Positions 36,809 through 48,139 of a DNA stretch of 64,000 nucleotides are shown here, piece after piece. Every line of letters starts with the position of its first letter. The stretch's first letter is position 1. The notes below the pieces were generated by a model. That model ran no database searches and was not told the DNA's origin. It saw only the letters and a program-made list of their open reading frames with translations. The position numbers were made by a program, and so were the translations under genes. Origin of the DNA: Catenisphaera adipataccumulans (GTDB lineage: Bacteria > Bacillota_I > Bacilli_A > Erysipelotrichales > Erysipelotrichaceae); contig NZ_JACHHK010000002.1 of the NCBI RefSeq assembly GCF_014202755.1, positions 310,001 to 374,000 of the forward strand, written 5' to 3'.

Positions 36809-37109
36809 ATGAAAAATACAGCACTGATCACAGGTTCATATGGCGGTTTAGGAACATGTTTTATGAATATTCATGCTGCAAATCACGGGGATTTAATTTT
36901 GGTCGGAAGAAATCAGACAAAGCTTGATCAACAGGCGAAGGAAACCGAAAACAGAAATGGTATCAAAGCACATACAATTGCAGCCGATCTTTCCAAACCG
37001 ACAGCAGCCTAGTTTATTTATGATATGTGCAAAAAGAACGGCTGGCAGCCGGATATCATCATCAACAAGTTACTAACAGGGGTTGATGCATTAAAAGATA
37101 TCAACTTAA
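36809..37109 (+). pseudogene. Short-chain dehydrogenase remnant
   Basis: The frame opens MKNTALITGSYGGLGTCF, the TGxxxGxG cofactor motif of SDR enzymes (here GSYGGLGT), with LVGRNQTKL and AADLS as expected for the first Rossmann half. A TAG at 37010 interrupts it after 67 codons. Past the stop the same frame continues with F-I-Y-D-M-C-K-K-N-G-W-Q-P-D-I-I-I-N, the family sequence before the NNAG motif, then breaks down. The catalytic Ser-Tyr-Lys half is gone. A good start remains, so this is a recent nonsense mutation plus 3' deletion. Confidence 0.85.
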
Positions 37110-37161: not shown

Positions 37162-37923
37162 CTATACTTGTATTACTTTTGTGCTTTTAGATAAAGATTC
37201 GATGATGTTTTTATTGGTCTCCTGACTGGTGATTAAAACGTCGATGTCGGACCATTTTGCATATTTTAGCATCGATGAGTAAGTTGCTTTACTTGAATCG
37301 CTCAATACAAAAGTCTTCTTAGCACAGTTGATCGCATGCTGCTTCACATCTAGATCTTCAAAGTTATTCGTAGTCGGACCGTTATGCCTTTCAAAGCCAG
37401 ATGTCCCCATGATTGCCGCATCAACTCTTACCGACTGCAAGAACGATATTGTTTCTGGACCGTAGCTGCAAGAAACTTTTGTGTTGATATACCCTCCGGT
37501 AAATATGATTCTGTTTTTTGTATCGAACAGAGTGTTCACTACAGGCAGTGAATTGGTTATGATCGTAAATTCTTTGTCTTTGATCAGATTGGCAAAATGC
37601 AGTACGGTGCTTCCTGTATCAAGAAAAAATACAGAATCATTTTCAATTAAAGAGATTGCTTCTTTGCAAATACGTATTTTTTCTTCTTTATTGTTTTCCA
37701 GACGGGAGGATATAGGATAGATACCAAAATCATTTTTGTGAACGACCGCATTACCAAGCCAACGATTAATTTCGCCATTTTCTGTTAATGCATTTAGATC
37801 TCTGCGGATCGTTTCACTTGAAACGCCTAATTTTTCCGCTAATTCACTGGTTTTAACCGTTCCGTTGATGGATATTAGTTCAATAATTTGTTTTCGTCGT
37901 TCTTCTATACTCAGTTTTTTCAT
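37162..37923 (-). CDS. DeoR-family regulator of the hexulose-phosphate operon
   Basis: A 253-residue DeoR/GlpR-type regulator: winged helix (KTSELAEKLGVSSETIRRDLNALTENGEI) and DeoRC domain with FLDTGSTVLHFANLI and IITNSLPVVNTL sugar-phosphate loops. GAGGA lies 7 bases before the start. It is divergent from hps with a 213-base region full of palindromes, so it most likely controls the hps-phi-PTS-mtlD operon in response to a phosphorylated sugar intermediate. AT-rich like the operon. Confidence 0.9.
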   Translation of the reverse strand: MKKLSIEERRKQIIELISINGTVKTSELAEKLGVSSETIRRDLNALTENGEINRWLGNAVVHKNDFGIYPISSRLENNKEEKIRICKEAISLIENDSVFFLDTGSTVLHFANLIKDKEFTIITNSLPVVNTLFDTKNRIIFTGGYINTKVSCSYGPETISFLQSVRVDAAIMGTSGFERHNGPTTNNFEDLDVKQHAINCAKKTFVLSDSSKATYSSMLKYAKWSDIDVLITSQETNKNIIESLSKSTKVIQV

Positions 37924-38014
37924 TTTTATTCCTCAAAATTGTGTTTAATTCAAATTACTTTCCCACATATTTTACAGCATTTCGTGTAGCATTAGCAATA
38001 TTCTCCAAGAAAAG

Positions 38015-38120
38015 TGCAAATTCCACAAAAAATATATGTAAATGCAACATTTAATGTTGCCAAACCACACTTATAATGGTAATATAATTGCGTAAATCAC
38101 AAATATTTGTGGAATTGCAA
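38015..38120 (+). promoter_or_regulatory. Operator and promoter region of the hps operon
   Basis: Three symmetric elements are visible: GCAACATT-T-AATGTTGC (38044-38060, perfect), CACAAATATTTGTG (38098-38111, perfect) and an inverted pair of GCAAATTCCACAAA (38015-38028) with TTTGTGGAATTGC (38106-38118). A promoter TTGCCA (38057) with TAATAT (38080, spacing 17) or TATAAT (38083) lies between them. Arrangement fits repression by the divergent DeoR protein. Confidence 0.6.
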
Positions 38121-38136
38121 TAAAGGAGGAGCGTTG

Positions 38137-38766
38137 ATGATGAAATTGCAACTTGCGCTAGATGACTTGGAATTGAATGATGCGTTAGCTCTTGTTCAAA
38201 AAGTGAGAGACGATATTGACATTATTGAGGTCGGGTCACCATTTATTATCGAGGAAGGCATGAGAGCTGTTCGTGAACTGAAAAAACGGTTTCCAGAAAA
38301 ACTGATTTTAGCGGACACAAAAATTATGGATGCCGGTGAATATGAAGCTGAAAAAACATACATTGCCGGGGCGGATATCTGCACAGTTTTAGGAGTGACC
38401 GATTCTTTAACGATTAAAGGATGCTTAGAGGCTGCAAAAAAATATGGCAAGAAGGTCATGGTCGATATGATTTGCGTGGAAGATGTTCCGAAACGTGTAG
38501 CTGAAATAGAATCAATCGGTGTTGATTTTATTGGTGTTCATGTAGGTGTCGATCAACAAGCCGTTGGAATTACCCCGTTGGAAAAATTAGCCGAAATGAA
38601 AAAAGTTTCGAAAAAATCGAAGATCTCCGTTGCCGGAGGAATTAATCCCAAAACAGTAGCTGATTATAAAAAGGTTGGTGCCGATGTCATCATTGTCGGC
38701 GGCGGAATCACACATGCTAAAGATCCGGTTGCTGCTGCTCATGCAATCGCTGAAAAAATAAAATAG
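38137..38766 (+). CDS. hxlA: 3-hexulose-6-phosphate synthase
   Basis: A 209-residue (beta/alpha)8 enzyme of the OMP-decarboxylase superfamily. The metal and catalytic motif is D-T-K-I-M-D-A-G (Asp60, Lys62, Asp65), which is the HPS form rather than the K-I-A-D-A-G form of UlaD 3-keto-L-gulonate-6-phosphate decarboxylase. The C-terminal phosphate loop is VAGGINP and IVGGGITHAKDP. It interconverts D-arabino-3-hexulose 6-phosphate with ribulose 5-phosphate and formaldehyde. AAGGAGG precedes the ATG at 38137. The isomerase partner follows after 15 bases. Confidence 0.88.
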   Translation: MMKLQLALDDLELNDALALVQKVRDDIDIIEVGSPFIIEEGMRAVRELKKRFPEKLILADTKIMDAGEYEAEKTYIAGADICTVLGVTDSLTIKGCLEAAKKYGKKVMVDMICVEDVPKRVAEIESIGVDFIGVHVGVDQQAVGITPLEKLAEMKKVSKKSKISVAGGINPKTVADYKKVGADVIIVGGGITHAKDPVAAAHAIAEKIK

Positions 38767-38781
38767 AAAGAAGTAATAAAT

Positions 38782-39342
38782 ATGAAGGCAAAAAAACTAC
38801 AAATCATTTCCGAGGAAATTAGTAAGTACAGCCAGTATGTAACGCAAGAAGATATCGACCGTTTCGTACAGGCAATTCTGAAAGCAAAACGTATTTTTGT
38901 CAATGGCGCAGGACGTTCTGGTTTTGCTGCCAGAGCGTTTTCAAATCGGCTTATGCATTTAGGACTGACCGTTTATTTTGTCGGTGAACCAACCACACCT
39001 TCTATTCACGAAGGAGACTTGCTGGTCATTGGATCAGGAAGCGGCACAACGGCTTCTCTTGTTTCCAATGCAAAAAAAGCCAAATCAACAGGTGCTAGCA
39101 TTGCTACATTGACAATTGATCCAAAAGCCACGATTGGATCAATGGCTGATGTAGTTGTCGTTATCCCAGGGGCAACACCGAAAAATGAAGAAGTCAACAA
39201 CACAAATCTTTCGCAGCAGCCGATGGGAAGCTTGTTTGAACAATTGAGCTGGTTAACCTATGATTCAGTGATTATGGAATTGATGCCGCTGCTGCATCAA
39301 ACAGAAGATGAAATGTTTAGCCGACATGCAAATATGGAGTAA
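38782..39342 (+). CDS. hxlB: 6-phospho-3-hexuloisomerase (SIS domain)
   Basis: A 186-residue SIS-domain protein of the PHI family: FVNGAGRSGFAARAFSNRLMHLGL with the sugar-phosphate Ser, VGEPTTPSIHEGDLLVIGSGSGTT, and the C-terminal catalytic His/Glu region. It converts D-arabino-3-hexulose 6-phosphate to fructose 6-phosphate and normally works with HPS in the ribulose monophosphate pathway. Here the product fructose 6-phosphate is also what a mannitol-1-phosphate dehydrogenase gives, so PHI links the PTS branch to HPS. Confidence 0.9.
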   Translation: MKAKKLQIISEEISKYSQYVTQEDIDRFVQAILKAKRIFVNGAGRSGFAARAFSNRLMHLGLTVYFVGEPTTPSIHEGDLLVIGSGSGTTASLVSNAKKAKSTGASIATLTIDPKATIGSMADVVVVIPGATPKNEEVNNTNLSQQPMGSLFEQLSWLTYDSVIMELMPLLHQTEDEMFSRHANME

Positions 39343-39354
39343 GAAGGTATAAGT

Positions 39355-41229
39355 ATGGAAGCAAAAACAACACAAGCAAAAATCCAAAAATTTGGTTCTA
39401 CTTTAAGTGCGATGGTAATGCCAAATATTGGCGTCTTTATTGGATGGGGTTTATTGACAGCGTTCGTTATTGATACGGGCTGGATCCCAAATGCATATTT
39501 GAACGAACTCGTTTCCCCGATTTTAACATATTGTTTACCATTATTGATTGGCTATACGGCAGGATATAACGTATATGGCCGCCGCGGCGGTGTCATCGGC
39601 GCATTTGCAACAATGGGCATGATCGTTGGCAGCAGTGTAACAATGCTGGTCGGCGGAATGATCATGGGACCGCTTGGAGCTGTATGTATCAGAAAGTTTG
39701 ATCGAGCTGTGGAAGGTAAAGTAAAACCAGGATTAGAAATGTTGGTTGACAATTTTTCTCTTGGTTTGATTGGTTTAGCTCTCTGCCTGTTGGGCTACGT
39801 CATTGCAGCACCTATATTAACAACAATCGAGAACGTATTATCAAGCGGCGTACAGGTATTGTGTGATAAGAATTTAATTCCATTAGCAGCACTCTTTGTA
39901 CAGCCTGCTCAGATCCTCTTCTTAAATAACGCAATCAATCATGGCATTATGATTCCGTTAGGTATTGAACAAGCTGCAAAAACTGGAAAATCAGTCTTAT
40001 TTTTGGTAGAAGCAAGCGGAGCTTGCTGGGTTGGTCTTGCGGCAGCGTTCGCAAAATTTGGCAATAAATCTGCCCGAAGAAGTGCACCAGGTGCTGTGCT
40101 GATCATGTTCTTCGGCGGTATTGCAGAAGTATGTTTCCCATACTGCTTAACGATGCCGATCACAATTTTAGGCCCGATTGCAGGTAATATGTTTTCTCTG
40201 TTCGTATTGACCGCATTTGGCGGCGGTACAGTTGGACCAGTTTCACCAGGATCCGTCATTGCCTATTTTATGATGACTCCAAAAGACAGCATGCTTGTTA
40301 ATGCAATTGCATACTTTGGATCCTTATGCATTACATTTGTGGTTACCGGATTTATTTTAAAACACTACCGACAAGAGGAGACTCTAGACGAAGAGGATGC
40401 TAAAGGTGAAAGTACGGCTGCTAATTTTATTCCTTTCACTCAACCATTAGGGGAAGTAAATAAAATTGTGTTTGCCTGTGATGCAGGTATGGGTTCGAGT
40501 GCAATGGGTGTATCAATTTTGAAGAAAAGGCTTGCAAATATTGGCCTGAATCCAGAAATTAAACATGTTGCCGTATCAGAAATACCAAATGATACAGATA
40601 TAGTCGTTACAAATGAAAACCTGGCGAAGAGAGCTGAAATGGTAACGGGTGGAAAGATCCCAATTTTAACCTTATCAAACTTTATGGACGAATCGGAGTA
40701 CGACAGTATTGCTAATCATATCCAGCAGATGTCAGATAAAAGTAAGAACGTGAATCAGCCGGCAAAAAATGATGTAGATGATCAAAAAAATGTACAAAAA
40801 GTAAATAAAGATATTTTCCCGGATGAGAATATTGTTTTAGGAGCTAAGTTTGATAACAAACAACAAGCCATTGAAGCTTGCGCAGATATCTTTATTAAAA
40901 ACGGTTATACCACAAAACAGTATAAACAAGACATGATCGAGCGTGATAAAGATGTATCCGTTTATATCGGAAATGGTGTTGCGCTGCCGCATGGATTATC
41001 CGCATCGGAAGGAAATGTTCTGACCTCTGGAATTTGCTTGATCCAAGTACCGGACGGTGTCGATTTTGATGGCAATATGGCATATTTGCTGATTGGTGTT
41101 GCCGGAAAAGGTGAAGAACATGTACAAATCTTAGGAAAATTAGGCGAAATTATGCTTGATGAAAAGAATTTATCAGCATTGAAGACGGCAAAAACGAAAA
41201 TGGATATTAAGAACGTACTTAAATTTTAG
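39355..41229 (+). CDS. Mannitol-family PTS EIICBA
   Basis: A 624-residue fused permease. Residues 1 to about 345 form the membrane EIIC domain of the MtlA type (GSTLSAMVMPNIGVFIGWGLL start, NNAINHGIMIPLG and GGIAEVCFPY substrate loop). EIIB phosphorylation Cys375 lies in FACDAGMGSSAMG, and EIIA His546 in VALPHGLSASEG after a linker rich in Asn and Lys. It imports and phosphorylates a hexitol, mannitol being the default guess. It starts 12 bases after the isomerase gene, in the same operon. Confidence 0.92.
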   Translation: MEAKTTQAKIQKFGSTLSAMVMPNIGVFIGWGLLTAFVIDTGWIPNAYLNELVSPILTYCLPLLIGYTAGYNVYGRRGGVIGAFATMGMIVGSSVTMLVGGMIMGPLGAVCIRKFDRAVEGKVKPGLEMLVDNFSLGLIGLALCLLGYVIAAPILTTIENVLSSGVQVLCDKNLIPLAALFVQPAQILFLNNAINHGIMIPLGIEQAAKTGKSVLFLVEASGACWVGLAAAFAKFGNKSARRSAPGAVLIMFFGGIAEVCFPYCLTMPITILGPIAGNMFSLFVLTAFGGGTVGPVSPGSVIAYFMMTPKDSMLVNAIAYFGSLCITFVVTGFILKHYRQEETLDEEDAKGESTAANFIPFTQPLGEVNKIVFACDAGMGSSAMGVSILKKRLANIGLNPEIKHVAVSEIPNDTDIVVTNENLAKRAEMVTGGKIPILTLSNFMDESEYDSIANHIQQMSDKSKNVNQPAKNDVDDQKNVQKVNKDIFPDENIVLGAKFDNKQQAIEACADIFIKNGYTTKQYKQDMIERDKDVSVYIGNGVALPHGLSASEGNVLTSGICLIQVPDGVDFDGNMAYLLIGVAGKGEEHVQILGKLGEIMLDEKNLSALKTAKTKMDIKNVLKF

Positions 41230-41242
41230 GAGGGAATAAAAA

Positions 41243-42394
41243 ATGAAAACAGCAGTTCATTTTGGAGCCGGTAAAATTGGAAAAGGATTTATTGGTGATT
41301 TGTTACATGACAGTGGATACGATATCACTTTTGTCGATGTGAACCAATCTGTTGTTGATACATTAAATAAAGATCATCAATATAGTTTGTTTTTGCTCGA
41401 CCACGATTATAAAGAAAAGGTGATCGATCATGTAAAAGCATATTTTACGAATACAGATTACAATCAGATCATTGAAGAAATCGCTAATGCAGAGATCGTT
41501 ACAACATCTGTGATGGCTACGAATTTGGTAAAAATTGCTCCGTTGTTAGCAGATGGTTTGAAAAGCCGTTTAAACAAAGGCAAGAAAAAAGTCGTTGTGA
41601 TGGCATGTGAAAATGCGATCATGGGAACCGATATGCTGAAAAAAGCGATGATTGATTCTGGAAACATTACGGAAGAGCAATTAGATGAAGTGGGTGTTTA
41701 TCCAAATACAGCAGTTGACCGCATGGTTTTTGAAGGGAACCACCATGGAAAAAATGGTATTGAAATCGATGATGATTATGAATTAGTCATTGAGGCAAAC
41801 AAGCTAGATGATCTTGAAAACAAACCAATTAAAAATGCGGAATATGTGAAAAATTTAGGTATGTACTTGGAACGAAAAATTTATATGGTAAATTGCGGTC
41901 ATACGGTGACGAGTTATTTTGGCTATATCAAAGGCTATAAAACCATTCAGGATTCTTTGAAAGACCCAGAACTCGTTGATGAAATGAAGAAAGCAGTAAT
42001 GGAATCCGCATCTGCCTTAGAAAGAGAATATGGATTCAAACATGAAGATCTTGTGTCCTATTATGATAAGATGATCATTAATCGATATACAACTCCAGGC
42101 ATTGCTGATCCGGTTACCAGAGTTGCCAGAGAACCAATTCGTAAGATCGCTCCAAATGAAAGAATCATGGGCCCTGCAATCAAATGTGAAAAGTATGGAT
42201 TGGATAATGAATACTTGCTGAAAGCATGTGCATGTGCGCTTGCTTATAAATATGAAAAAGATAAGCAGGCTGTGACGCTTCAAAAATTTATTGCAGAGAA
42301 TGGTGTCGAAGCAGCAATCAAAAAGTATATTGGATTAGATAAAAATGACCGCATGACGAAAAGAATTGTTGAAATTTACAATTCTCTCGTTTGA
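41243..42394 (+). CDS. mtlD: Mannitol-1-phosphate 5-dehydrogenase family
   Basis: A 383-residue polyol-specific long-chain dehydrogenase. The NAD loop is HFGAGKIGKGF at the N-terminus and the active-site lysine, asparagine and histidine have the family spacing (Lys212, Asn217, His220 in RKIYMVNCGH). MtlD usually reads VNTGHA at this place, so the C-G-H-T variant may mean a different hexitol phosphate. AGGAGGG precedes the ATG. Product with mannitol 1-phosphate would be fructose 6-phosphate. Last gene of the operon; a terminator follows 100 bases later. Confidence 0.88.
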   Translation: MKTAVHFGAGKIGKGFIGDLLHDSGYDITFVDVNQSVVDTLNKDHQYSLFLLDHDYKEKVIDHVKAYFTNTDYNQIIEEIANAEIVTTSVMATNLVKIAPLLADGLKSRLNKGKKKVVVMACENAIMGTDMLKKAMIDSGNITEEQLDEVGVYPNTAVDRMVFEGNHHGKNGIEIDDDYELVIEANKLDDLENKPIKNAEYVKNLGMYLERKIYMVNCGHTVTSYFGYIKGYKTIQDSLKDPELVDEMKKAVMESASALEREYGFKHEDLVSYYDKMIINRYTTPGIADPVTRVAREPIRKIAPNERIMGPAIKCEKYGLDNEYLLKACACALAYKYEKDKQAVTLQKFIAENGVEAAIKKYIGLDKNDRMTKRIVEIYNSLV

Positions 42395-42493
42395 TCCTTA
42401 TTTACTACGTATAATTTCAACTGCAGATTCTCCCTCTGATTTAGTTTGCTAAGCAGGTTGATTATACGATGTTGAATAAATGCAATTCGAAAG

Positions 42494-42522
42494 AAAGACG
42501 GACTTAATTAGTCCGTCTTTTT
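42494..42522. terminator. Bidirectional terminator after mtlD
   Basis: AAAGACGGACT (42494-42504), TAATT loop, AGTCCGTCTTT (42510-42520) and more T. It also ends the convergent LUD gene, whose stop begins at 42523. Confidence 0.88.
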
Positions 42523-43126
42523 AGTACCCAAGATCTTCATGGATCAGGATGACTTCATAGTCGGTGGATGTTGGCTTATCCCAAAGCACGTTCAGGATCC
42601 TGCAGATGCGTTCCGGGCTTTGGCAGTCCGCGCACTTGTCCAGGACACTGCACGGTGTCTTCTTATGCAGGCGCTGGGCGTTTTTCGGGGCGGCGATATT
42701 GCGGGCACGGGCCAGTGCTTCATCGAAAGTCGGCGCCAGCTTGTTTTCGCCGATCACAAAGATGACCTTTTGATGCCCATAAAGGGTAGAGGCAATGCGG
42801 TTGCCGTAGCCGTCGATATTGATGATCATGCCGTCCTCGGATAAGCCATTGGCGGAACAAATATACAGTTCGGTCTGTGCAGCTGCCTTCCGCATGTCTT
42901 CTGCGGTCTGGCCTTCCGGAATGCGCCAGTGCCAATACACTTCGTTATGCGGCTGCAGACGTTCATATAAACCCATCGCATCCAACGTGACCGAGCCGCC
43001 GAAGCCGACGGTTTTCTGATCAATTTCTGCATCCAACGCATCAGCTGCTTCTTTGGCCGTATCAAAGCACTTGACCTGATAGCCTTTGGCTTCCAATGCT
43101 TTTTTTACTTTATCAAAACTTTTCAT
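42521..43126 (-). CDS. LUD-domain protein (DUF162, lactate-utilisation type)
   Basis: A 201-residue LUD protein related to LutC/LutB N-terminal domain and YkgG. The GFGGSVTLDAMGL loop and GMIINIDGYGNRIASTLYGHQKVIFVIGENK segment are typical; Cys residues near the end (CSVLDKCADCQSPERIC) could bind metal. Family members work with iron-sulfur partners in lactate oxidation, though many stand alone with unknown role. It follows the DeoR gene after 8 bases, with AGGAGG RBS, so both are in one operon. Confidence 0.85.
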   Translation of the reverse strand: MKSFDKVKKALEAKGYQVKCFDTAKEAADALDAEIDQKTVGFGGSVTLDAMGLYERLQPHNEVYWHWRIPEGQTAEDMRKAAAQTELYICSANGLSEDGMIINIDGYGNRIASTLYGHQKVIFVIGENKLAPTFDEALARARNIAAPKNAQRLHKKTPCSVLDKCADCQSPERICRILNVLWDKPTSTDYEVILIHEDLGY

Positions 43127-43134
43127 ATGACCTC

Positions 43135-43887
43135 CTATACATGTTTTCTGCCGTCCGTGGTGATGTAGCGGATCCGATCCGGCGGGAAGGAACCGATGTC
43201 ATCGGTGATGATAATAGCTTCATCCAGATCGGCAAAAGGCACCGGACAGAGCACGTTGAATTTTGACGCATCCGCCAGAATGTACGGATGATCGGAATGA
43301 CGGATGCCAAGAGCCTTGGTGTCGGCTTCCAATTCATTGGATGTCGTGAAACCGACGCGCTCATGAATGCCGTTGGTGCCGACAAAGGAAATATCAAAAT
43401 AGAATTCTTCCATCATGCGGATGGCTTGTTTGCCGGCTACAGCTTCAGTCGGCCAGTACAGATTGCCGCCCAACATGATCGTCGAAATATGCCGCTGTCC
43501 TAAGATCTGTAAATGGGGGATCCCCGGCGTGACGACGGTGATGTTTTTCGCAGTGATGAATTCCAACATTTCATAGGTCGTACTGCCGGCATCGATATAA
43601 ACCATCTGGTTGTCCTGGATCAGCTTGGCAGCCGTATATGCGATCTGGCGCTTGCTTGTATGATGCGTCTGGCTTTTGATCATCATGGCCGGTTCCTGCA
43701 TTTGGGTGCCGGACAAGCGGACGCCGCCATGATAGCGTTCTACCATATTCAGGTCTTCCATCTGCTGCAGATCGCGGCGGACAGTGGCCGGCGAAACGTG
43801 CAGCGTATCCACCAGCGCATCGACCGAAACGGACTGCTGCTTGCGGCAGATCTCGATAATTGTGGTCCATCGTTCTTGCTTCGACAT
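43135..43887 (-). CDS. DeoR-family regulator of the second hexitol operon
   Basis: A 250-residue DeoR-type regulator with winged helix (SVDALVDTLHVSPATVRRDLQQMEDLNMVERYHGGV) and DeoRC domain with IDAGSTTYEMLEFI and VVTPGIPHLQIL loops. The start at 43887 has GGAGG (43893-43897) 5 bases upstream. It is divergent from the pfkB/PTS operon and probably senses a ketose or hexitol phosphate made by it. Confidence 0.9.
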   Translation of the reverse strand: MSKQERWTTIIEICRKQQSVSVDALVDTLHVSPATVRRDLQQMEDLNMVERYHGGVRLSGTQMQEPAMMIKSQTHHTSKRQIAYTAAKLIQDNQMVYIDAGSTTYEMLEFITAKNITVVTPGIPHLQILGQRHISTIMLGGNLYWPTEAVAGKQAIRMMEEFYFDISFVGTNGIHERVGFTTSNELEADTKALGIRHSDHPYILADASKFNVLCPVPFADLDEAIIITDDIGSFPPDRIRYITTDGRKHV

Positions 43888-43902
43888 AAGAACCTCCAAA
43901 AT

Positions 43903-44015
43903 AATCATTATTATGATCGTTTTAATCATTATAACAATCTATATTCAATAAAACAATGAGTATTTGATTGAATTGCGTTCAAATATATTGATAAATCAAA
44001 TGAAGTCGTTATACT
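43903..44015 (+). promoter_or_regulatory. Promoter and operators of the second hexitol operon
   Basis: TTGATA (43988-43993) and TATACT (44010-44015) with 16 bases between form a likely promoter. AATCATTAT occurs twice in the same direction at 43903 and 43924, a spacing of 21 bases or two helical turns, as DeoR proteins often use direct repeats. The inverted repeat TTGAA-TTGCG-TTCAA (43968-43982) abuts the -35. Confidence 0.6.
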
Positions 44016-44052
44016 GAAAGCGTAGATGAAAACGCATACAGGAGGAACGAAG

Positions 44053-44970
44053 ATGATTTACACTGTAACATTCAATCCATCGCTGGACTACATCATCCAT
44101 GTGGAAAAATTCCGCGCCGGACAGATCAACCGGACGGATGAGGAATTGATCTTTCCCGGCGGCAAAGGAATCAACGTTTCCATTGTGCTGAAGCACCTGG
44201 GCATCGAGAGCACTGCCTGGGGATTTGTGGCCGGGTTTACCGGAAAGGAAATTGAGAAGCGTCTTGGCGACATGGGCGTACGAACCGATTTCATTGTTTC
44301 CGAAAACGGGCTGAGCCGCATCAATGTGAAGATGCATTCCGATGAAGAAACCGAGATCAACGGCCGCGGGCCGAAGATCTTGGACGCGGATATCCGGAAG
44401 CTGTATGAAAAGCTTGATGGTTTGAAGACCGGCGATGTATTGATCCTTTCCGGAAGTATTCCTTCTAGTATGCCGGAGACGATGTATATGGACATCATGA
44501 AACATTTACAAGGCCGCGGCATCAACATTGTGGTCGATGCGACCCGGGACCTGCTGGTCAAGGTGCTGCCGTACCATCCCTTCCTGATCAAACCGAACAA
44601 CCACGAGCTGTCGGAAATTTTCGGGACAGAAATTACCGAAAAAGACGATGTGCTGAACTATGCGGGAAAAATGCAGGAGATGGGAGCGCGCAATGTCTTG
44701 GTCTCGATGGCCGGTGAGGGTGCCGTGCTGCTGACCGAAGACGGCCAATCGTTCCGGGCCGAAGCGCCGAAAGGAAAAGTGGAAAATTCCGTCGGCGCCG
44801 GTGATTCCATGGTTGCCGGTTTCATGTATGGATATATGCAGGATCATGATTATCAGAAGGCGTTTGAATACGGTGTCTGCACCGGAAGTGCCAGTGCTTT
44901 TTCCAAAGAGCTGGCAACAAAAACGGAAGTGGAAGCCTTATTAAAGAACAGCCGAAAATGTTTTGAGTGA
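44053..44970 (+). CDS. 1-phosphofructokinase/tagatose-6-phosphate kinase family
   Basis: A 305-residue PfkB sugar kinase of the FruK/LacC/TagC group: FNPSLDYI start, PGGKGINVSIVLKHLG substrate motif, and catalytic base Asp251 in NSVGAGDSMVAGF. It phosphorylates a ketose 1-phosphate or 6-phosphate to a bisphosphate. The RBS GGAGG lies 7 bases before 44053. Followed after 18 bases by an EIICBA and a SorE-like reductase, which favours a ketose 1-phosphate as substrate. Confidence 0.9.
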   Translation: MIYTVTFNPSLDYIIHVEKFRAGQINRTDEELIFPGGKGINVSIVLKHLGIESTAWGFVAGFTGKEIEKRLGDMGVRTDFIVSENGLSRINVKMHSDEETEINGRGPKILDADIRKLYEKLDGLKTGDVLILSGSIPSSMPETMYMDIMKHLQGRGINIVVDATRDLLVKVLPYHPFLIKPNNHELSEIFGTEITEKDDVLNYAGKMQEMGARNVLVSMAGEGAVLLTEDGQSFRAEAPKGKVENSVGAGDSMVAGFMYGYMQDHDYQKAFEYGVCTGSASAFSKELATKTEVEALLKNSRKCFE

Positions 44971-44988
44971 GAGAAAGGTTAGGAAAAC

Positions 44989-46848
44989 ATGAAAGAAAAA
45001 GTACAATCGTTTGGCCGCTTTTTAAGCGGAATGGTCATGCCGAACATCGGCGCATTCATCGCATGGGGTCTATTGACCGCCCTGTTTATCGATACCGGCT
45101 GGACGCCGAATGCTGCACTGGCTACGATCGGCACACCGATGCTGACGTATTTACTGCCGGTGCTGATTGCGTACCAAGGCGGCAAGATGGTCGGCGGACC
45201 GCGCGGCGCGGTAGCCGGTGCTGTCGCAACGATCGGTGTCATCTGCGGTACCGAGTATACCATGTTGATGGGCGCCATGGTCATGGGTCCGTTTGCCGGC
45301 TGGTGCATGAAGAAAGTCGATGCTATGTTTGAAGGACACATCAAACCGGGATTTGAGATGTTGGTCAACAACTTCTCTCTGGGAATCCTGGCGATGCTGC
45401 TGGCGATCTTAGGCTTCTATGTCATTGGTCCTTTCATGGCCGGTGTGCTGAACGTCTTAAGTGCCGGTGTGCAGGTATTGGTCAACCATCAATTATTACC
45501 GCTGATCTCCGTATTCGTCGAACCGGCCAAAGTCCTGTCCCTGAACAACGCGATCAACCATGGTATTTTCACTCCGCTGGGTGCCGAGCAGGTCAAAGAA
45601 ACCGGCCGTTCGATCTTCTATATGATCGAAACCAACCCAGGTCCGGGAACTGGTGTGCTGCTGGCCTATTCCTTCTTTGCCAAAGATGAACATACAAAAC
45701 AGTCGGCTCCGGCTGCTCTGATCGTGCATTTATTCGGCGGTATCCACGAGATCTCCTTCCCGTATATCTTAATGAACCCGCTGCTGCTGCTGGCAACGAT
45801 CGGTGGTTCGGTCTGCGCGATGATCTATAATTCCATCATGGGACTGGGTCTGGTTTCACCGGCTTCTCCGGGATCGATCTTTGCCTTTGTCGGCATGGCA
45901 CCGAAGGGCGAAACCATTCAGGTATTATTGAGCATCGTCATCGCTGCCGGTGTATCCTTCCTGATTGCCAGCCCGATCGTTCGTTTCAGCAATGCCAAGA
46001 AATCTTTGGATTCTGCATCGGATCAGATGGCCGATATGAAAGCAGCCTCCAAAGGCGCTACGGCTTATACGACCAGTGAATCCGGCCAGAAAGTCGATTT
46101 ACGTACGTTAGATCACATTGTATTCGCTTGTGATGCCGGAATGGGCAGTTCGGCGATGGGCTCAGCTGTTCTGCAGCGAAAATTATCTGCCGCCGGTTTT
46201 GACAACATTACCGTTTCACACGCTCCGGTATCTGAAATTCCAGCCGGCACCGAACTGGTTGTCTGCCATCGGGATCTGGCCGAACGTGCAGTGAAGAGCG
46301 CACCGAATGCCAAGCTTGTTACGATCACCGATTTCATGACCGCACCGGAATACGATGAAATCATCAAAGAACTGCAGGATGCCCGTCTGAATACCAATCC
46401 AGAAAATGCCGAAGGTTCGGACTTCCACGGCGGAATCCTGATCAAGAAGAATATTCACTTGAACGGCCCGGAAAAGAACAAAGAAGAAGTCATCAAAGAA
46501 ATGGGCAAAGTGATGTACGAAAGCGGCTATACGACCGAGAAATATACCGAAGCGATGTTTGAAAAAGAAAAAGTCTTCAATACCGCCATCGGCAATGAGA
46601 TCGCCATCCCGCACGGCATTGAATCCATGACCGGTGAAATCAAGAATTCCGGTATTGCGATCTTCACTTATCCGGATGGTATGGACTGGGGCGACGGCAA
46701 TATCGTCAAGCTGGTTATCGGTGTCGCTTCCGTCGGCAACGATCACATGGCTGCCCTGCAGAAGATCGCTGAAGCATGCAGCACGACCGAAGATGTCGAA
46801 AAAATTGTGAAAATGGATGTCGATGAGATATATAATCTATTTAAGTAA
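44989..46848 (+). CDS. Second mannitol-family PTS EIICBA
   Basis: A 619-residue paralogue of the permease at 39355 with the same domain order. EIIC begins FGRFLSGMVMPNIGAFIAWGLL and has NNAINHGIFTPLG and GGIHEISFPY; EIIB Cys381 is in FACDAGMGSSAMG; EIIA His542 in IAIPHGIESM. The GGIHEISFPY loop follows MtlA of E. coli more closely than the GGIAEVCFPY loop of the first copy, so this one is the better candidate for true mannitol uptake, or for a related hexitol. Its GC is higher than the first copy. Confidence 0.92.
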   Translation: MKEKVQSFGRFLSGMVMPNIGAFIAWGLLTALFIDTGWTPNAALATIGTPMLTYLLPVLIAYQGGKMVGGPRGAVAGAVATIGVICGTEYTMLMGAMVMGPFAGWCMKKVDAMFEGHIKPGFEMLVNNFSLGILAMLLAILGFYVIGPFMAGVLNVLSAGVQVLVNHQLLPLISVFVEPAKVLSLNNAINHGIFTPLGAEQVKETGRSIFYMIETNPGPGTGVLLAYSFFAKDEHTKQSAPAALIVHLFGGIHEISFPYILMNPLLLLATIGGSVCAMIYNSIMGLGLVSPASPGSIFAFVGMAPKGETIQVLLSIVIAAGVSFLIASPIVRFSNAKKSLDSASDQMADMKAASKGATAYTTSESGQKVDLRTLDHIVFACDAGMGSSAMGSAVLQRKLSAAGFDNITVSHAPVSEIPAGTELVVCHRDLAERAVKSAPNAKLVTITDFMTAPEYDEIIKELQDARLNTNPENAEGSDFHGGILIKKNIHLNGPEKNKEEVIKEMGKVMYESGYTTEKYTEAMFEKEKVFNTAIGNEIAIPHGIESMTGEIKNSGIAIFTYPDGMDWGDGNIVKLVIGVASVGNDHMAALQKIAEACSTTEDVEKIVKMDVDEIYNLFK

Positions 46849-46861
46849 ATAGGAGGCCTAT

Positions 46862-48139
46862 ATGAAAACAAAAGCAGTAAGAATGTACGGAAAAATGGAT
46901 TTGCGTCTGGAAGAGTTCGAACTTCCGGAAATCAAGGATGATGAGATCTTAGCGAAGATCTACAGCGACAGCTTGTGCATGTCAACATATAAACTGGCGC
47001 TGCAGGGCAAGGAACATAAACGTGCGCCGCAGAACATCGATACCCACCCGGTCATCACCGGCCATGAGTTTGCCGGCGTGATCGTCAAAGTCGGCAAAAA
47101 ATGGCAGGATCAATTCAAGCCAGGCATGCGCTTTGCGCAGCAGCCGGCGCTGAACTACAAAGGATCGATGGCATCCCCGGGCTATTCGTATGAATATTTC
47201 GGCGGAGACTGCACTTACTGCATTTTCCCGCATGAAGCAATGGAAGTCGGTGCGCTGATGCCGTTCCATGGCGACAGCTTCTATAAAGCCTCGCTGGGCG
47301 AGCCGCTGTCCTGCTCGATCGGTGCGATGCACGCCCAGTATCATACGAAACAAGGTGTGTACCATCATGAAATGGGATTGAAGCGCGGCGGCAATCTGAT
47401 CATCATGGGCGGCTGCGGTCCGATGGGACTGGGTGCTGTTTCCTACGGTGTGGTCTGCGACTATCATCCAAAACGCATCGTGGTGACCGATGTCAACGAT
47501 GAAAAGATCAAACGCGCCGAAGAAGTGGTCTCCCCGGCCTGGGCCAAAGAACATGGTGTCGAATTGATGTATGTCAACACCGCTGCTATGGATGATCCGA
47601 AACAAGGCCTGATGGATCTGACGGACGGTCACGGCTACGATGATGTGCTGATCTATGTACCGATCCCGGCCGTTGCGGAACTGGGCAATCAGGTACTGGC
47701 TTATGATGGCTGCATGTCGTTTTTCTCCGGCCCCAGCAATAAAGATTTCCGTGCGAAGGTCAATCTGTATGACTGCCACTACAACGCGACCCACATCATG
47801 GGTACGACCGGCGGCAACAACGATGATTTGATCGAAGCCAATCAGCTGGCCGCCGATGATATCATTGATCCGGCGGTCATGGTGACTCATGTCGGCGGCA
47901 TCGATTCGATCGCCGAAGCAACGAAAAACCTGCCGAATCTGCCGGGCGGCAAAAAGCTGGCCTATACGCAGTTCAACATGCCGATGACCGCCATCGAAGA
48001 TTTTGGCAAACTCGGTGAAACGGATCCGTTCTTTAAAGAACTGGATGCCTGCTGCAAGGCCCACAATGGTTTGTGGAATGCCGAGGCAGAGAAGATGATC
48101 TTCGAACACTTCGGTGTCACGGTCGATGCGATCGATTAA
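46862..48139 (+). CDS. SorE-like ketose-1-phosphate reductase (zinc dehydrogenase)
   Basis: A 425-residue zinc-dependent medium-chain dehydrogenase that resembles L-sorbose-1-phosphate reductase SorE: YSDSLCMSTYKLA with Cys39, ITGHEFAG with His68-Glu69, PGYSYEYFGGDCTY, GEPLSCSIGAMHAQYH, NAD loop IMGGCGPMGLG, and HIMGTTGGNNDD. SorE interconverts L-sorbose 1-phosphate and glucitol 6-phosphate. In this operon it would oxidise the PTS product to a ketose 1-phosphate for the kinase at 44053. It begins 13 bases after the PTS gene with AGGAGG. Its stop shares a TTAA palindrome with the convergent lipoprotein. Confidence 0.82.
   Translation: MKTKAVRMYGKMDLRLEEFELPEIKDDEILAKIYSDSLCMSTYKLALQGKEHKRAPQNIDTHPVITGHEFAGVIVKVGKKWQDQFKPGMRFAQQPALNYKGSMASPGYSYEYFGGDCTYCIFPHEAMEVGALMPFHGDSFYKASLGEPLSCSIGAMHAQYHTKQGVYHHEMGLKRGGNLIIMGGCGPMGLGAVSYGVVCDYHPKRIVVTDVNDEKIKRAEEVVSPAWAKEHGVELMYVNTAAMDDPKQGLMDLTDGHGYDDVLIYVPIPAVAELGNQVLAYDGCMSFFSGPSNKDFRAKVNLYDCHYNATHIMGTTGGNNDDLIEANQLAADDIIDPAVMVTHVGGIDSIAEATKNLPNLPGGKKLAYTQFNMPMTAIEDFGKLGETDPFFKELDACCKAHNGLWNAEAEKMIFEHFGVTVDAID

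Follow-up and report, generated by a model that had tools for sequence, protein, structure and literature searches.

A polyol phosphotransferase operon of Catenisphaera adipataccumulans with hexulose-phosphate synthase and isomerase genes points to an undescribed route of sugar-alcohol breakdown

In a 64,000-nucleotide stretch of the genome of Catenisphaera adipataccumulans, a gut-type bacterium (contig NZ_JACHHK010000002.1, hereafter the window), a DeoR-family regulator gene lies divergent from genes for a 3-hexulose-6-phosphate synthase (HPS), a 6-phospho-3-hexuloisomerase (PHI), a mannitol-family EIICBA of the phosphotransferase system (PTS) and an MtlD-type dehydrogenase. Related operons recur with PHI nearly always kept, which from sequence comparison points to an undescribed route of sugar-alcohol breakdown. 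The reading we favour, tentatively and at a little under an even chance, is that this is a DeoR-controlled operon for a single polyol, which is most likely a hexitol but not D-mannitol, and that in it HPS cleaves a 3-keto intermediate.

The window HPS scores 283.8 bits with TIGR03128, the curated HPS model (cut-off 200), and falls below the cut-offs of the 3-keto-L-gulonate-6-phosphate decarboxylase (KGPDC) models, both PRK13306 (133.5 against 250) and the UlaD model (116.2 against 294). Its nearest chain in the Protein Data Bank (PDB) is 3f4w, and the active-site residues D9, E31, D60, K62, D65 and H135 are intact. Alignment to E. coli UlaD structures places D110, V138, A166 and G189 of the window protein at UlaD E112, R139, T169 and R192, four positions which we take, from the UlaD mutant structures 1xbx and 1xbz, to discriminate between KGPDC and HPS. 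Model scores and residues together rule out a KGPDC identity, which the initial annotation of this DNA had named as fatal to its own reading; on this evidence the protein is a true HPS-type enzyme, predicted to interconvert ribulose 5-phosphate plus formaldehyde and hexulose 6-phosphate. The residue at UlaD position 139, V or A in mtl-linked HPS and mostly F in chromosomal copies, was not used as a marker, since bona fide HPS chains vary there too. PHI scores 238.3 bits with TIGR03127 (cut-off 160), is homologous to the solved chains YckF, AF1796 and MJ1247, and falls inside the clade of HPS-linked PHIs in our tree.

The EIICBA reaches 609.6 bits with the general IICBA model PRK15083 (cut-off 589) but misses the mannitol EIIC model TIGR00851 (389.6 against 468.4), as does, just below the line at 463.5, the neighbouring EIICBA of the window. 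It reads GIAE in place of GIHE and is placed apart from reference mannitol EIICs. Our EIIC tree comprises 46 domains, seven of them such references (E. coli, Yersinia frederiksenii, Priestia, E. faecalis, an L. plantarum plasmid, S. aureus and Paenibacillus). The tree has two sides (SH-aLRT 99), the window protein being one of 24 domains on the first and all seven references lying among the 22 on the second. The residue corresponding to E. coli H256, the histidine of GIHE, is Ala or Gly in 24/24 domains on the window side (GI[AG]E) and His in 22/22 on the other, and five further positions divide the sides (E. coli M55, E182, G224, L291 and V319). Glu257, the neighbour of position 256, has been reported as important for mannitol binding (Saraceni-Richards and Jacobson 1997, as cited in PMC12900739). 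PHI is encoded nearby in 20 of the 24 loci on the window side: eight times with HPS, ten times with a ribulose-phosphate 3-epimerase-like (Rpe-like) protein and twice with a 6-phosphogluconate dehydrogenase-like (6PGDH-like, Gnd) protein; two of the four loci without PHI are on short contigs. The difference in PHI linkage between the sides (20/24 against 1/20, p 1e-7, two loci chosen by their PHI omitted) is descriptive only, since the loci compared are related to one another and the search started from the window protein itself.

A second, separate PHI-polyol association lies outside the GI[AG]E clade, on an Enterococcus raffinosus megaplasmid (L174, 1064-6416) that encodes DeoR, an Rpe-like protein, PHI, MtlD, EIIA and an EIICB with a GIHE-type EIIC.

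The MtlD-type enzyme stays under every PRK02318 MtlD equivalog cut-off (best 338.2 against 356) and forms a clade separate from the seven reference MtlDs, with the K-x4-N-x2-H catalytic motif kept (RKIYMVNCGH, compared with RKLFTLNTGH of E. coli MtlD, 3h2z).

A scan for the EIICBA over 84,980 species genomes gave 32 loci. Searching for the same association, as the initial annotation had proposed, we found HPS-PHI adjoining MtlA/MtlD homologues in eight loci including the window, in five gene orders: HPS-PHI-MtlA-MtlD in Clostridia (L124), MtlA-MtlD / DeoR / HPS-PHI in L. plantarum EGD-AQ4 (L129), MtlA-MtlD-HPS-PHI-FeADH in Lachnospiraceae (L131), IICB-MtlR-IIA-MtlD-HPS-PHI in Vagococcus and Bombilactobacillus (L133, L136) and HPS-PHI-IICB-MtlR-IIA-MtlD-HPS-PHI-FeADH in Enterococcus (L138, L140). 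That the association persists, in rearranged order, across distant families speaks for a functional link. None of the seven reference mannitol operons contains HPS-PHI; a class-wide HPS survey and a phylum-wide MtlA survey covered few relevant genomes and added nothing. In the HPS tree the window protein clusters with L124 and L129 (support 98) and not with the genome's own copy on contig C1, a grouping with which the PHI tree agrees at weak support, and this suggests that the HPS-PHI-mtl cassette forms a lineage of its own that has passed from one family to another. The gene that follows HPS-PHI in the Lachnospiraceae locus and the two enterococci encodes an Fe-dependent alcohol dehydrogenase (FeADH), that of L131 being nearest to the aldehyde-reducing YqhD model.

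The partner of PHI is exchanged between otherwise similar operons. Two sister loci (L126, L127) carry the same EIICBA, MtlD and DeoR set (63%, 60-62% and 43-45% identical to the window proteins, respectively), with an Rpe-like gene and PHI, together with a HAD phosphatase, replacing HPS-PHI. Rpe-like and PHI genes also stand with a related EII and a sorbitol-6-phosphate-dehydrogenase-like short-chain dehydrogenase (SDR) in Yersinia, Ewingella, Izhakiella and Microbacteriaceae. In L141 (6505-11083) and L142 (6605-10416), RpiR, an NAD-type 6PGDH-like protein and PHI accompany a related mannitol-family EII and no other dehydrogenase; here the 6PGDH-like enzyme might oxidise hexitol 6-phosphate at C3. 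The Rpe-linked PHIs of polyol operons form a clade of their own (support 100). The Rpe-like partners in L126 (7573-8307) and L143 (6810-7505) have DGR in place of the DGG typical of ribulose-phosphate 3-epimerases, a possible sign that their substrate differs. Because PHI is constant while its HPS, Rpe-like and 6PGDH-like partners change, we infer that it serves the transported polyol rather than a general pentose need.

As for the operon itself (Table 1), the open reading frame (ORF) positions, 37162-42394, confirm the divergent arrangement first annotated, and the 12-15 base gaps were read correctly (HPS/PHI 15, PHI/EIICBA 12, EIICBA/MtlD 13 bases). The program-called HPS ORF opens at TTG 38107, while an ATG behind AAAGGAGGAG lies at 38137. 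Two inverted-repeat arms, 76 nt apart, bracket a candidate promoter; promoter-like sites are as numerous in this region as in shuffled sequence, and the candidate is supported by its position between the arms. Because the repeat brackets this promoter and a terminator hairpin downstream of mtlD closes the unit, the four genes are likely to form one transcription unit under the divergent DeoR, orthologues of which (41-45% identity) adjoin the same EIICBA/MtlD in loci L125, L126, L127, L128 and L129. The operator motif was rejected as the sign of a wider regulon, its 13-base form occurring in the window at no more than chance frequency.

Table 1. Features of the polyol PTS operon and its candidate control elements (window positions)
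Feature	Position	Strand	Basis
DeoR/GlpR-family regulator	37162-37923	-	PF08220 and PF00455 above cut-off
Candidate operator half-site AATTCCACAAA	38019-38029	+	Perfect 11-bp inverted repeat with 38106-38116
Candidate promoter TTGCCA-17-TAATAT, TG before -10 hexamer	38057-38085	+	Consensus scan
Candidate operator half-site TTTGTGGAATT	38106-38116	+	Second arm of the perfect 11-bp inverted repeat
HPS	38137-38766	+	TIGR03128, active-site residues
PHI (HxlB-type)	38782-39342	+	TIGR03127
Hexitol PTS EIICBA, GI[AG]E clade (MtlA1)	39355-41229	+	PRK15083, GIAE motif, tree clade
MtlD-type polyol-phosphate dehydrogenase	41243-42394	+	PF01232 and PF08125
Intrinsic terminator	42492-42522	+	13-bp stem, 5-nt loop, then T residues; -18.5 kcal/mol, z -6.7

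Two neighbours of the operon deserve mention. A short-chain dehydrogenase remnant (MKNTALITGSYGGLG..., 36809-37013) ends with an in-frame TAG that precedes the terminator region of DeoR. Directly downstream (42521-48139) is a second hexitol-type operon, with a LUD-domain protein and a DeoR on the minus strand, a PfkB/1-PFK-type kinase, a GIHE-type EIICBA and a SorE-like zinc dehydrogenase, and comparable IICB-MtlR-IIA-PfkB-SorE sets are found in L149, L150, L152 and L153.

From these comparisons we infer a substrate, a direction, a reaction for each enzyme and a fate for the formaldehyde. The EIICBA would import and phosphorylate the polyol, and the MtlD-type enzyme (an SDR in some related operons) would oxidise its penultimate carbon, giving a 2-ketohexose 6-phosphate. 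PHI would move the carbonyl to C3, and HPS, working in the cleaving direction, would split the resulting 3-ketohexose 6-phosphate into a D-pentulose 5-phosphate and formaldehyde, whose removal would be required, perhaps through reduction to methanol. In the sister operons the Rpe-like enzyme would instead epimerise C4 of the 3-keto intermediate and PHI would return the product to fructose 6-phosphate. Relative to carbonyl and phosphate, C4 of 3-hexulose 6-phosphate is positioned like C3 of ribulose 5-phosphate, so that to both TIM-barrels, HPS and Rpe-like, the shape would be a familiar one. Since 6PGDH normally oxidises C3 of 6-phosphogluconate, a 6PGDH-like enzyme acting on hexitol 6-phosphate would yield a 3-ketose for PHI to use. 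Formaldehyde release is indirectly backed by the Fe-type alcohol dehydrogenases beside HPS-PHI in two lineages.

Several points weigh against this scheme. The HPS equilibrium favours condensation, so cleavage needs formaldehyde removal, and the window operon contains no gene for it; nor did we meet, in the literature searched, any documentation of HPS acting on a C4 epimer. In L083/L179, from the same family, a GIHE-type EIIC is paired with an MtlD that is 60% identical to the window's and belongs to its clade. The dehydrogenase alone is therefore no proof of a new substrate, and mannitol 1-phosphate may well be what the window MtlD acts on. The linkage of HPS-PHI to manA, a fructose-6-phosphate-forming step, seen in this genome and in others, suits an ordinary fructose-6-phosphate shunt.

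Such a shunt was the first proposal of the initial annotation: D-mannitol would be imported and converted by MtlD to fructose 6-phosphate, part of which PHI and HPS would turn into ribulose 5-phosphate and formaldehyde, in place of the oxidative route that the genome lacks. We checked the gene content of the genome (Bacillota, 2.0 Mb, 97.5% complete) one family at a time and found neither zwf nor 6PGDH nor phosphoketolase (XFP_N), so the suspected absence of oxidative pentose phosphate genes holds; phosphoketolase was rejected as a pentulose sink on the same ground. The setting also appears non-methylotrophic, as had been assumed, with nothing methylotroph-like near the operon. The fructose 6-phosphate to pentose direction of HPS-PHI is established for archaea (PMC9700705), and hxlA/hxlB of Lacticaseibacillus casei have been read in the pentose-supplying direction (PMC7716342). 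These precedents favour the shunt, as do the operon's status as holder of the sole MtlD of the genome (its only Mannitol_dh_C protein) and the manA linkage, and the part of the proposal that stands comprises the real genes, their likely single DeoR unit and the HPS-type enzyme. What does not fit is the transporter, whose EIIC does not group with the mannitol EIICs and is missing the histidine of GIHE, and the Rpe-like protein in place of HPS in close sister operons, a swap that a ribulose 5-phosphate shunt leaves unexplained. Nor would HPS-PHI of the operon be the only source of pentose phosphates, since two split transketolases and two transaldolase-family proteins would allow pentoses to form without HPS, and C1 encodes a second HPS-PHI pair, belonging to the type common in the family and set between a divergent DeoR of its own and a following manA, that could already supply them. 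On balance we consider a mannitol shunt less likely than our own reading, though a serious rival to it.

Other copies fill in this picture of the genome, which also holds several ribulose-phosphate 3-epimerase-family genes and eleven Fe-ADH matches. A third PHI, without HPS, belongs to a BglG/GatC/GatA/Rpe/PHI/SDR operon (L074, 7957-11666; C1:128956-132665) comprising a GatC-type EIIC, EIIA, ribulose-phosphate 3-epimerase and SDR beside a BglG-type regulator. In a survey of the taxonomic order, PHI was above cut-off in 44/245 genomes, mostly in C1-type HPS-PHI pairs, often adjoining DeoR and sometimes manA.

The annotation's alternative, that a rare hexitol is oxidised straight to 3-hexulose 6-phosphate, which PHI converts to fructose 6-phosphate with HPS as an accessory, fits the comparative data better than the shunt does, PHI being the one partner kept throughout the EIIC clade and the sole oxidoreductase beside it in L141/L142 being of the 6PGDH-like type that normally oxidises C3. 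Direct 3-ketose formation nevertheless sits badly with MtlD-type enzymes, which oxidise the penultimate carbon and whose K-x4-N-x2-H motif is unchanged here, and it ignores an HPS that keeps all its catalytic residues and is co-inherited in HPS-type operons, so that we regard it as improbable. We think equally little of the possibility that HPS-PHI runs forwards, fixing methanol-derived formaldehyde onto ribulose 5-phosphate fed by a pentitol or hexitol. Condensation is the favoured direction of HPS, alcohol dehydrogenase genes follow HPS-PHI in L131, L138 and L140, and with a pentitol the MtlD product would itself be a pentulose 5-phosphate; but the window operon has no gene for a methanol or formaldehyde source, the L131 enzyme resembles an aldehyde reductase most closely, and a pentitol leaves the PHIs of the Rpe and 6PGDH types unexplained. 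That a housekeeping HPS-PHI pair merely landed beside an mtl operon would suit the survey of the taxonomic order, in which none of the ~40 other PHI-positive loci has the HPS-PHI-MtlA arrangement, but is largely refuted and very improbable because the association recurs in differing gene orders in Clostridia, Lachnospiraceae, Lactobacillaceae and Enterococcaceae and the genes have short gaps and a shared promoter and terminator.

The component families, HPS, PHI, mannitol-family EII and MtlD, are already known, as is the ribulose monophosphate (RuMP) pathway in the cleaving direction. Like the window genome, Thermococcus kodakarensis and other archaea have HPS and PHI without zwf and 6PGDH and are proposed to convert fructose 6-phosphate to pentulose 5-phosphate and formaldehyde; the window pair differs in its place in a DeoR-linked hexitol PTS operon, and its genome in the second HPS-PHI pair and the transketolase and transaldolase homologues. 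Mannitol operons (mtlA-mtlD in E. coli, mtlA-mtlR-mtlF-mtlD in enterococci and staphylococci) share the EIICBA and MtlD-type dehydrogenase in the same order, whereas the window operon has DeoR rather than MtlR, added HPS-PHI, a GI[AG]E EIIC and an MtlD apart from the seven references. In the hxlAB formaldehyde operon of Bacillus and Staphylococcus HPS likewise precedes PHI, but the B. subtilis plasmid record shows no link to a PTS or polyol dehydrogenase. A Salmonella plasmid cassette (L168, 4994-8582; L169, 4841-8576) of PTS EIIC, cupin glucose-6-phosphate isomerase, hxlB and hxlA resembles the window in joining PTS import, a step giving a 2-ketohexose phosphate, PHI and HPS, although there the EIIC is of the glucose family rather than part of a hexitol EII, and an isomerase stands in for the dehydrogenase. 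The Rpe-like/PHI hexitol PTS operons of Yersinia, Ewingella, Frigoribacterium and Enterococcus raffinosus share a PHI homologue, a mannitol-family EII and a polyol-phosphate dehydrogenase, and differ in having the epimerase-like protein instead of HPS and a PHI of the separate clade. A full-text literature search, with most subscription journals outside its coverage, found no description of HPS-PHI, or of PHI with alternating partners, in mannitol or other hexitol (polyol) PTS operons, which is weak evidence of novelty.

More doubtful than our reading of the single operon, though conceivable, is its extension to a whole class of polyol PTS operons that would degrade rare hexitols via 3-ketohexose 6-phosphates, with a core of GI[AG]E-type EII and PHI and interchangeable HPS, Rpe-like 4-epimerase or 6PGDH-like 3-dehydrogenase modules, across Bacillota, Actinomycetota and Pseudomonadota. 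The GIHE position provides a sequence marker separating mannitol transporters from polyol transporters now labelled mannitol-specific in databases. Formaldehyde fixation or detoxification is the role usually assigned to HPS and PHI, which in these operons are found within the sugar-alcohol catabolism of anaerobic and lactic bacteria. If a hexitol-derived sugar phosphate is indeed cleaved, sugar alcohols would become a source of formaldehyde or methanol in gut bacteria, which would also obtain pentose phosphates without glucose-6-phosphate dehydrogenase.

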